From an uncultured Tateyamaria sp. (GTDB lineage Bacteria; Pseudomonadota; Alphaproteobacteria; Rhodobacterales; Rhodobacteraceae): 64,000 bases of DNA. Below, one piece after another: positions 43,195-45,782 of the stretch. The DNA is taken from assembly GCF_947488715.1 (NCBI RefSeq), contig NZ_CANLAG010000003.1, positions 372,001 to 436,000 on the forward strand. Reading direction: 5' to 3'. Each line of letters opens with the position of its first letter. The first letter of the stretch is position 1. Both the position numbers and the translations under genes were made by a program. The notes under the pieces are model-generated. The model saw only the letters and a list, made by a program, of their open reading frames with translations. It was not told where the DNA came from and ran no database searches.

Positions 43195-43821
43195 TCAGAC
43201 GATGGTCGCCTGTGTGGCGGCGCGCAATTCGTCTTCGCTCACGCCATCGGCCGTCTCGACGATCTTCAGGCCACCTTCGACCACGTCCAGCACGCCAAGA
43301 TTGGTGATGATACGGTCCACAACGCCTTTGCCTGTCAAAGGCAGCGTGCATTCCGTCAGCACCTTGCTGTCGCCGTGTTTGTTGGTGTGATCCATGACCA
43401 CGACCACACGGCCCACACCTGCCACCAGATCCATCGCGCCGCCCATGCCCTTGACCAGCTTGCCGGGGATCATCCAGTTGGCAAGGTCACCGTTTTGCGC
43501 AACTTCCATTGCACCGAGGATCGCCATTGCGATCTTGCCGCCACGGATCATGCCAAAGCTTTGGGCGCTGTCAAAATAGGCGGTCTGCGGCAGTTCGGTG
43601 ATTGTCTGCTTGCCCGCGTTGATCAGGTCAGCGTCTTCGGTGCCTTCGACCGGAAAGGGGCCCATGCCCAACATGCCGTTTTCAGATTGCAGCGTCACCT
43701 CGATCCCCTCGGGGATATAGTTCGACACCAGAGTCGGAATGCCGATCCCGAGATTGACGTACCAGCCGTCTTCGAGTTCTTGCGCAGCACGCGCGGCCAT
43801 TTGGTTGCGATCCCAGGGCAT
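43195..43821 (-). CDS. scoB: 3-oxoacid CoA-transferase subunit B
   Basis: A 208-residue subunit of the heterodimeric CoA-transferase that moves CoA from succinyl-CoA to acetoacetate (or a similar 3-oxo acid). The catalytic glutamate is E47 in [24 protein letters not shown] and [19 protein letters not shown] are typical. Its partner subunit is encoded 1050 bases upstream, beyond a LOV kinase-like gene; all three lie on one strand with gaps of 9-11 bases, so they form one operon. The A and B genes normally touch one another, which makes the insertion notable. Confidence 0.93.
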
Positions 43822-43830
43822 CGGTCTTCC

Positions 43831-44859
43831 TTATTCGTCTGAAAGTGTCGCGCCCGCAGGCACGTCTATGGTGATAAAACTACCAGCGGCACCGCGGCCC
43901 AGATGCAACGTACCTTCGAGGCCCTCGATCAGGCCAGCGACAATGCGTCCGCCCATGGTGCGCGTATCCGGCCATTGCATCCCACTTGGAATGCCAACGC
44001 CGTCGTCGGACACGATAAGGCGCAGACCACCCGCGCTCAGGCGGCTCATCCGGACTTCTACCAAACCGTTTTCGATCCGGTCAAAGGCATGTTGCAGCGC
44101 ATTTGTCAGCAGTTCGGACAACACCAGGCCCACACGTGTCGCGGTTTCAATCGGTACCTCGAGCGGCTCAATCTGGATCGACAGCCGGATGCCAGAGCGC
44201 CCTTCGACGTGACCGATGGCTGCGGCCAGACGCGACAGGTAGCTGCCCATCTGGATGCTATCCCGGTTGGACTGCTGGTCAGACAGCTTCATCTCTTCGT
44301 ACAGCAGTTGCAGCGTCTCGATGCGGCGGCTGAGTGCGGCAAAGTCCTCGGGCACCGACGTCGCACCGGTCTGTTGGCGGATCATCGCGATGATCATCGA
44401 CAGGTCAGATGCCACACGGTTCTGGATTTCGATCAGCTGGGCGTGAATGTCCTCAGCGCTGGACGACATCTCGCCCTGGCGCAGTTCCTTCTGGATCCCA
44501 ACGAAATACTGCGTGCGCCCCTGATCGTCCTGTACGGGGGCCACGATCAACCGGTTGGTAAACGGGTCGCCGTTGGCGCGGTAGTTCAGGATGTCAACGC
44601 TGACGGTATCCTCGGCCTCGATCCCGGCGCGCAACTTGTCCACGTCCGCTTTCTTTGTGCCCTCGCCTTGCAGGAACCGGCAATTGCGCCCGATGGACGC
44701 TGACCGGGCGTACCCGGTGGACCGGGTGAACGCCTGATTGACGTAGACGATCGGGTTGTCCTCGAGATGCGGGTTGGTCACGACCATGGCGATTTGCGCC
44801 CGCGAGAACCCCTCGAAGGATTTGTCGTCTTCCAGTAGCTGTTCGATGGTGTCAGGCAT
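43831..44859 (-). CDS. LOV-domain photosensor, histidine kinase-like, without the acceptor histidine
   Basis: A 342-residue cytoplasmic protein. Residues about 18-125 form a LOV domain with the flavin motif GRNCRFLQG and photoactive C60, so blue-light sensing by a flavin-cysteine adduct is expected. Residues 135-200 correspond to the dimerisation region of HisKA_2 kinases, but the H-box reads EIQNRVASDL: N147 occupies the place of the phospho-acceptor histidine (normally H before R-x-K-N). The ATPase domain is intact, with N-box ELLTNALQHAF, DDGVGIP (285-291) and a GGRIVAG lid. It is encoded between the two CoA-transferase subunit genes. It could be a light-dependent ATPase, partner kinase or non-phosphorylating sensor. 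Confidence 0.82.
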   Translation of the reverse strand: MPDTIEQLLEDDKSFEGFSRAQIAMVVTNPHLEDNPIVYVNQAFTRSTGYARSASIGRNCRFLQGEGTKKADVDKLRAGIEAEDTVSVDILNYRANGDPFTNRLIVAPVQDDQGRTQYFVGIQKELRQGEMSSSAEDIHAQLIEIQNRVASDLSMIIAMIRQQTGATSVPEDFAALSRRIETLQLLYEEMKLSDQQSNRDSIQMGSYLSRLAAAIGHVEGRSGIRLSIQIEPLEVPIETATRVGLVLSELLTNALQHAFDRIENGLVEVRMSRLSAGGLRLIVSDDGVGIPSGMQWPDTRTMGGRIVAGLIEGLEGTLHLGRGAAGSFITIDVPAGATLSDE

Positions 44860-44870
44860 GGCCTGGCTCC

Positions 44871-45584
44871 TTACGCGGCGCGAGTGGTCCGTTGTTCGAT
44901 ACGCTTTTCGTGTTCGCCCTGGATCAGGCGGTGAACGTAGATGCCGGGCAAATGGATGTGATCGGGGTCCATGCTGCCGGTTGGCACGATTTCTTCGACT
45001 TCAGCGATGCACACCTTGCCACACATTGCGGCCGGTGGGTTAAAGTTTCGCGCAGTCTTGCGGAAAATCAGGTTGCCTGTGGCGTCGGCCTTCCAGGCCT
45101 TGACGATGGAGACATCAGCAAACAGCCCCGTTTCCATGATATAGGTTTCCATCGCGCCATCTGGCCCTGTCGGGAAATCCTTGTGCTCCTTGCCGTCGGC
45201 GATGACCGTGCCCACACCAGTCTTGGTGTAGAAACCGGGGATGCCGCATCCGCCCGAACGCATACGTTCGGCCAGGGTGCCTTGGGGGTTGAACTCGAGC
45301 TCCAGCTCACCCGACAGATATTGACGCATGAACTCTGCGTTCTCGCCGACATAAGAGGAAATCATTTTGCGCACCTGCCGCGTTTGCAGCAGGATGCCGA
45401 TCCCGAAATCGTCGACGCCCGCGTTGTTGGATGCGAACGTCAGGTCCTTGGTCCCCGCGTCCTTGATCGCATCCAGCAAGAGCTCGGGAATGCCGCAGAG
45501 GCCAAAGCCACCCGCCGCAATGAACATCCCATCAAATAGCAGACCTTCCAGAGCCTCTGCTGCGGAACCGTAGACTTTCTTCAT
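44871..45584 (-). CDS. scoA: 3-oxoacid CoA-transferase subunit A
   Basis: A 237-residue alpha subunit of the CoA-transferase. The CoA-binding region GGFGLCGIPELLLDAI and MRSGGCGIPGFYTKTGVGT are characteristic, as is NFNPPAAMCGKVCIAEVEEIV. The ATG at 45584 has GAGGG six bases upstream and is preferred to the in-frame codon at 45596. It is the first gene of the scoA-LOV-scoB operon. The enzyme serves ketone-body or polyhydroxybutyrate breakdown. About 180 bases upstream hold the promoter. Confidence 0.93.
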   Translation of the reverse strand: MKKVYGSAAEALEGLLFDGMFIAAGGFGLCGIPELLLDAIKDAGTKDLTFASNNAGVDDFGIGILLQTRQVRKMISSYVGENAEFMRQYLSGELELEFNPQGTLAERMRSGGCGIPGFYTKTGVGTVIADGKEHKDFPTGPDGAMETYIMETGLFADVSIVKAWKADATGNLIFRKTARNFNPPAAMCGKVCIAEVEEIVPTGSMDPDHIHLPGIYVHRLIQGEHEKRIEQRTTRAA

Positions 45585-45782
45585 GCGCACCCTCAAACAG
45601 CCTGCTGACAGGCAATCCTTCGTTCACGAAATTATGTGACGGTAACATGGATCAAAGTCAACGCGTTGCCGCGGCAGTGCGCGACATAGTGCGGCTGCGC
45701 GGTGTGAGCGGGGATATATTGCATACCGCTGTATGCGGCGACCCGATTGCTCGGGACGCCGTGTTGAAAGATGTGGCGCTGT

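Follow-up and report, generated by a model that had tools for sequence, protein, structure and literature searches.

Gene content and domain structure of the locus

The window, a stretch of 64,000 nucleotides from an uncultured Tateyamaria sp., carries on its reverse strand an operon with the order scoA-LOV-scoB. The first gene, scoA (44871..45584, minus strand), encodes subunit A of a 3-oxoacid CoA-transferase (TIGR02429, 220 bits with a cut-off of 128.5). Its ORF was called from a TTG start at 45596, but the ATG at 45584, four codons further in, is likely to be the start. The last gene, scoB (43195..43821, minus strand), encodes subunit B (TIGR02428, 327.2 bits, cut-off 243.55). The gene between them (43831..44859, minus strand) was identified from its ORF and from domain searches as coding for a LOV-HisKA_2-HATPase protein of 342 amino acids that is devoid of the phosphoacceptor histidine. 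It follows scoA after 11 bases and precedes scoB by 9 bases, exactly as the earlier note on this DNA had described it. Inspection by eye revealed two putative ribosome sites on the minus strand, each of which also contains the stop codon of the preceding gene: TAAGGAG (44867..44873), which ends scoA and precedes the LOV gene, and TAAGGAAG (43826..43833), which ends the LOV gene and precedes scoB. A topA ORF is found near this operon; a canonical LOV kinase of another genome (L013), which has no scoA or scoB alongside, also adjoins topA.

The LOV (PAS_9) domain spans residues 33-126 (44482..44763, minus strand; Pfam PF13426, E 2e-15) and contains the motif GRNCRFLQG, the cysteine of which, C60 (codon 44680..44682, minus strand), is by homology the flavin-adduct cysteine. 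It is followed by a HisKA_2 (DHp-like) domain at residues 144-216 (44212..44430, minus strand), the score of which, 23.7 bits for PF07568, barely passes the Pfam cut-off of 22.3. Its degenerate H-box reads EIQNRVASDL and has N147 (codon AAC, 44419..44421, minus strand) at the position where the alignment of canonical relatives shows the phosphoacceptor histidine; D152 (44404..44406, minus strand) lies five residues further on. The HATPase_c domain at residues 240-334 (43858..44142, minus strand; PF02518, 33.3 bits, cut-off 26.4) contains an N-box with E249-LLT-N253 (44101..44115, minus strand) and a G1 box, DDGVGIP, at residues 285-291 (43987..44007, minus strand). The protein stays below the curated cut-offs of two family models, with 158.7 bits versus 450 for BluLightHisKinLov (NF052306) and 188.1 versus 361 for PRK13559 (NF010077).

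The best match of solved structure is EL346 (PDB 4r3a), which aligns with residues 10-336 at 296 bits. In this alignment the register of the H-box is ungapped and N147 faces the histidine of the EL346 sequence EVQHRVKNHL. A canonical HisKA_2 kinase that adjoins PhyR in the same genome, with LREVHHRVKNNL at its H-box, aligns to N147 in register in the same way as EL346 does. The earlier note's reading of the H-box, with N147 in place of the histidine, is thus borne out, and no alternative H-box histidine occupies the acceptor position.

EL346 and RT-HK (RT349), which are soluble EL346-like LOV-HisKA_2 kinases, share their domain order with the window protein, and its LOV, N-box and G1 motifs are like those of EL346, which, however, has the acceptor histidine. 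RT-HK has it as well, and its mutants H152A and N256A are described (PMC12148442). Both EL346 and RT-HK autophosphorylate (PMC10359499). The sections of these two papers available to us mention no link to scoAB. That EL346-like LOV kinases without the acceptor histidine exist is already known: a 2023 paper, as far as its accessible text goes, devotes one sentence and a supplementary figure to such a subgroup (PMC10359499), which is very probably the clade described here. In the main text of that paper, as available, the terms neighborhood, synteny, gene cluster and partner do not occur, the letters CoA turn up only within the word ‘coaxial’ in the title of a reference, and ‘operon’ appears once in a general sense. 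Among the matches listed in a literature search, the titles and abstract openings contained no paper joining LOV histidine kinases with scoA or scoB.

Occurrence of relatives

LOV proteins were admitted to the comparison if their match covered at least 200 residues and their ORF at least 290, which gave 143 proteins, 104 of them distinct in the core and including that of the window. These 104 comprise 62 proteins without the acceptor histidine (His-less), 33 canonical ones, eight distant rows (L043-L049 and L156) and one separate, decayed loss (L177). The distant rows and L177 were left out when the 62 were compared with the 33. A His-less gene is no oddity of one genome, although among the 62 Tateyamaria, Roseobacter and the genus to which genome G310 belongs weigh most heavily.

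Within the genus of the window 19 of 20 genomes, its own included, carry the LOV gene, and the ten closest named loci are all from Tateyamaria, with identities of 83-91%. The family was sampled with one genome per genus (394 genomes, 393 genera). Some match at E ≤ 0.001 was found in 254 of these genomes, most of the matches listed being to the LOV or the kinase part alone; among the matches listed, 49 loci span both parts and 19 of the 49 are His-less, each in another genus. A thin sample of the class yielded matches at 1e-40 in two of 385 genomes, one of which was the window's own. As EL346 comes from Erythrobacter, canonical relatives also exist outside the Rhodobacteraceae. A His-less member was not seen outside the family in a single-protein query over named genomes, which returned close relatives only (32 loci).

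Residues at the acceptor, light and ATP sites

The histidine at position 147 is absent from all 62 His-less proteins. The earlier note had raised the question of whether N147 is family-wide: the lack of the acceptor histidine extends to the whole clade, whereas asparagine itself is found in 30 of the 62, the others having Asp (12), Ser (7), Ala (4), Gly (3), Glu (3), Arg (2) or Thr (1). In the 33 canonical proteins 34 columns are invariant, and 26 of them are kept in at least 56 of the 62 His-less proteins. The columns that are almost wholly replaced are those of the acceptor site, namely 147, 150, 151 and 152 (K150 survives in four proteins, N151 in one and H152 in two), and a further four (144, 153, 161 and 296) are loosened. 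Position 152, a second histidine in 33 of 33 canonical proteins, has become newly fixed as aspartate in 60 of the 62. F18, L192, D194 and R261 are likewise conserved among the His-less proteins, though not among the canonical ones.

The residues of the light and ATP sites show the opposite behavior. C60 of the LOV motif, E249 of the N-box and D285, D286 and G287 of the G1 box are present in 62 of 62 His-less proteins, and N253 in 61, so that the three motifs are not only located where the earlier note had placed them but are conserved across the clade. Over the 40 His-less rows of a tree described below, position 147 has undergone 14 changes, which exceeds 76% of the columns, while C60, E249, D285, D286, G287 and G326 show no change and N253 shows one. 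Judging from this drift of the acceptor site alongside fixed C60, E249 and DDG residues, variation is tolerated at the acceptor site, whereas the light and ATP sites are constrained.

No other histidine of the H-box replaces the missing acceptor in the 62 proteins. H139, to which the earlier note had pointed as a fallback, is a histidine in just three of them, which refutes it as a property of the clade. Two histidines outside the H-box are well conserved, H217 in 59 of 62 and H257, which adjoins the N-box, in 61 of 62. As all 33 canonical proteins likewise have a histidine at 257, and 13 of the 33 as well as EL346 have one at 217, neither represents a new acceptor of the His-less clade. Because they lie outside the H-box, we did not adopt them as substitutes for the lost acceptor, though autophosphorylation at either of them is conceivable.

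Individual proteins depart from these patterns. L032, which is linked to scoAB, has lost the N-box in addition to the acceptor site and has an insertion in the G1 box, but its LOV motif is intact; because of its missing N-box, ATP handling cannot be universal in the His-less clade. In L042 a tryptophan replaces the adduct cysteine (RNWRFLLG) and the H-box is canonical.

Origin of the loss and selection on the gene

Trees were built from alignments without the H-box columns, in a 94-row and a 73-row version, both of which omit near-duplicates and EL346; the smaller one is also free of the distant rows and L177. In the 94-row tree all His-less rows except L177 form one clade of 53 rows (SH-aLRT 97). 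In the 73-row tree the His-less clade consists of 40 rows, is supported by UFBoot/SH-aLRT values of 100/95, and is nested among canonical LOV kinases. The presence or absence of the histidine requires one change over the 73 rows. Since the His-less rows form one clade with a single change of state, the trees indicate that the acceptor histidine of this clade was lost once and that residue 147 drifted thereafter. Repeated independent losses, which the many letters at this position might suggest, were rejected on the same grounds. L177 is the second LOV copy of one genome; it has lost the acceptor histidine, the N-box and the G1 box independently and is probably decaying.

Nine canonical proteins that fall outside the His-less clade are also encoded between scoA and scoB. 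For this reason, the LOV gene had apparently joined the operon by the time the histidine disappeared, and the loss would have occurred inside the operon, an order of events to be read with the reservation that the tree has a weakly supported root and implies 10 or more changes of scoAB linkage. As the loss of the histidine is one event, its link to scoAB adjacency is not amenable to a statistical test.

Ratios of dN/dS (Nei-Gojobori) in six Tateyamaria pairs were 0.055 for the LOV, 0.047 for the DHp and 0.038 for the HATPase part, about 0.050 overall, and they are rough values because the synonymous sites already differ by about half (about 0.55) or more. With the same reservation, close pairs of the other N and D groups gave 0.084 and 0.061, the genus of G310 gave 0.171 (0.25 in its DHp part), and four canonical pairs gave 0.389. 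By this measure the LOV gene is under purifying selection.

Linkage to scoA and scoB

A scoA gene upstream and a scoB gene downstream, both on the same strand, flank the LOV gene in 53 of the 62 His-less proteins versus 9 of the 33 canonical ones. Counted by genus in the family sample, and among the matches listed, both neighbors are present for 18 of the 19 His-less rows and for 9 of the 23 canonical rows that are close relatives. The order found in the window is hence conserved in most of the clade, a point the earlier note had proposed to check. The median gaps of the 53 linked genes are 19 and 23 bases, measured between the ends of BLAST matches.

The remaining nine His-less genes lie away from scoAB, which demonstrates that the LOV gene is able to persist apart from it. 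In all nine of these genomes scoB is found elsewhere, and in eight of them scoA is, although the universal presence of scoB is weak evidence, scoAB being widespread in general (18 of 20 genomes have a close scoA). Genome G415 had been considered as a LOV genome without scoA, for its search returned a 27% match and two short pieces only, but it was set aside: 24 bases separate its scoB from the edge of the contig, beyond which scoA is expected. Upstream of the intact His-less LOV genes L070 and L078 there are remnants of an old scoA, with scoA and scoB present elsewhere in the genome.

The opposite situation is encountered in G240 of the Tateyamaria group, where 132 bases separate the scoA match from the scoB match and a remnant is all that is left of the LOV gene. 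This remnant (L113:1379-1480, minus strand) is 33 residues long and, by eye, matches both ends of the LOV protein. Since these end pieces lie between scoA and scoB, the LOV gene was lost secondarily there, and because G240 keeps scoAB, the transferase can do without the LOV protein.

Among the canonical relatives, 24 of 33 lack a complete scoA and scoB alongside; in one of them, L033, part of scoA is found upstream, where the contig ends. G311 has a canonical LOV copy and no match to scoA or scoB. At 17 unlinked loci no receiver-domain protein was recognized by eye among the longest flanking ORFs; many of these ORFs are likely to be spurious frames of the antisense strand. The neighbors of unlinked copies, a weak assignment made by eye, include a PhoR-type-kinase-like protein (L035), topA (L013) and purF (L028 and L039). 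Several genomes of the genus to which G310 belongs also contain a second LOV copy, canonical and unlinked to scoAB, and seven extra or other copies (L171-L176 and L178) have the histidine; a heteromeric role is therefore possible in that genus.

A proposed contact mechanism and its alternatives

The explanation we prefer, with a probability of about 0.5, is that the protein is dead for phosphotransfer, responds to light and ATP, and acts by contact, ScoAB being its likeliest target. Blue light would produce the C60-flavin adduct, which would alter how the LOV domain touches the DHp-like helices and the GHKL ATP domain. The resulting ATP-dependent conformation, involving binding and perhaps hydrolysis, would control a partner through direct contact. 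This partner would most likely be ScoAB, encoded on either side, and either its activity or its assembly would be tuned by light. The sequences show that the acceptor was lost, and lost once, that the residues for light and ATP are retained, that the gene is under purifying selection and that the operon order is conserved; flavin photochemistry, ATP binding, the absence of phosphotransfer and the switch mechanism are what we infer. A light- and ATP-dependent switch that works without phosphotransfer is, taken on its own, quite probable. The choice of ScoAB as the target is more tentative, and we would put it at somewhat less than an even chance, as it is favored by operon logic only. The class proposed in the earlier note, a pseudokinase or light-controlled ATPase, appears to be the right one, given the missing histidine and the intact LOV and ATP residues.

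In GHKL ATPases such as Hsp90, GyrB and MutL the general base is the glutamate at the first position of the N-box. HWE/HisKA2 kinases carry a glutamate there too, according to the accessible part of PMC12148442. With E249 at this position, ATP hydrolysis is chemically plausible. However, this residue is present in 33 of 33 canonical proteins as well as in all His-less ones, so it is not distinctive and, being fixed in canonical kinases, proves no ATPase activity by itself. A bolder version of the mechanism, a light-driven ATPase or GHKL kinase of the CoA-transferase through which light would switch the acetoacetate/acetyl-CoA flux post-translationally and without a response regulator, strikes us as unlikely.

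A different partner is conceivable. As a DivL-like pseudokinase or phosphatase, the protein could bind either PhyR or the kinase of PhyR and thereby serve as a light-controlled modulator of the general stress response. The canonical relative RT-HK passes phosphate to RT-PhyR in vitro (PMC12148442, in the part available), and in the window's own genome PhyR (269 aa) adjoins a canonical HisKA_2 kinase; this genome also encodes an HWE kinase, and it has no second LOV relative in a search at E ≤ 0.001. The PhyR sigma-like family was above cut-off in 21 of 24 genomes, two of these in short frames only. On the other hand, the LOV gene is not at the PhyR locus, and three genomes with a His-less LOV gene, G148 (99% complete), G376 (95%) and G179 (99%), show no other HisKA_2 match and no HWE match, a result qualified by the fact that in G376 and G179 the HisKA_2 model overlooked even the degenerate LOV protein and may overlook other degenerate kinases likewise. 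PhyR-family matches in the three genomes are confined to frames of 182-197 aa, and one such frame each in G148 and G376 is just above the cut-off. We take these to be sigma factors, since they are too short for a sigma-like plus a receiver domain and since the PhyR search also matched 4 of 14 control genomes, including Bacillus subtilis. From these three genomes it follows that no two-component partner of the HisKA_2, HWE or PhyR class seems to be required, which also weakens the earlier note's suggestion that the protein modulates a partner kinase. A role in the PhyR pathway is hence probably not obligatory, while in Tateyamaria it is possible; as an explanation for the clade we find it rather doubtful. 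About as little weight is given to a passenger effect, according to which the gene is merely co-expressed with scoAB and its target is unrelated. The intact and conserved LOV genes of Roseobacter-group genomes in which scoAB sits elsewhere are in agreement with it, as are the many contexts of the canonical relatives and the canonical copy of G311. It does not sit well with the retention of both neighbors at short gaps in the large majority of His-less members and in nearly every His-less genus of the family sample, nor, as a weak argument, with the presence of scoB in every genome that has an unlinked gene.

The protein might also still phosphorylate, either as a GHKL kinase acting on Ser, Thr or Tyr of ScoAB or another protein, in the manner of RsbW/SpoIIAB and PDK/BCKDK, or by autophosphorylation elsewhere. 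PDK/BCKDK and RsbW/SpoIIAB have the GHKL ATP fold, form no phospho-His intermediate, act on a partner protein and have no LOV domain. An intact ATP site and a metabolic enzyme as the operon partner would fit this, the HATPase part does score with the SpoIIAB and RsbW models (17.8-26.6 bits, far under their cut-offs of 135 or more), and H217 and H257 would be at hand as alternative acceptors. Yet the domain and family-model searches of the window protein list no PDK match and give no family-level match to RsbW, and the occurrence of both histidines in canonical proteins, described above, is not what a new acceptor of the clade would look like. We consider continued phosphorylation improbable. 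Least credible of all, to the point of being negligible, is a decaying gene. The borderline HisKA_2 score, the mere remnant in G240 and the N-box loss in L032 could be read in that way, but decay is contradicted by the low dN/dS of every domain in Tateyamaria (0.04-0.06), by the near-universal presence of the gene in the genus and by the conservation of the ATP and LOV residues.

Two known kinds of protein likewise have a histidine-kinase-like part without the acceptor histidine. DivL of Caulobacter, likewise of the histidine-kinase fold, has a tyrosine in place of the acceptor histidine and signals by binding; it has no LOV domain, shows weak ATP binding and is a sensor of DivK~P (PMC4211667, in the portion available). 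The present clade, in contrast, has strictly conserved residues at the ATP site and can seemingly dispense with a PhyR-type regulator. The histidine-kinase-related domain of plant phytochromes also combines a light sensor with a histidine-kinase-like domain devoid of the histidine, but the photosensor is a different one and catalytically important residues, the histidine among them, are lost, as stated in the part of PMC6798134 available.

Significance

The present analysis adds the single origin of the His-less clade, its selective pattern, its operon and the genomes that apparently have no PhyR. We are dealing with a clade-wide sensor kinase of single origin in which, as the alignments indicate, the phosphotransfer site has been lost and the light and ATP sites have stayed fixed. 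This suggests that ATP handling in this fold may serve a purpose beyond the formation of phospho-His. The position in the operon leads to a specific, testable hypothesis, namely that light directly controls a metabolic enzyme in marine bacteria of sunlit waters. If it is true, these proteins would offer an obvious basis from which to develop light-gated enzymes.
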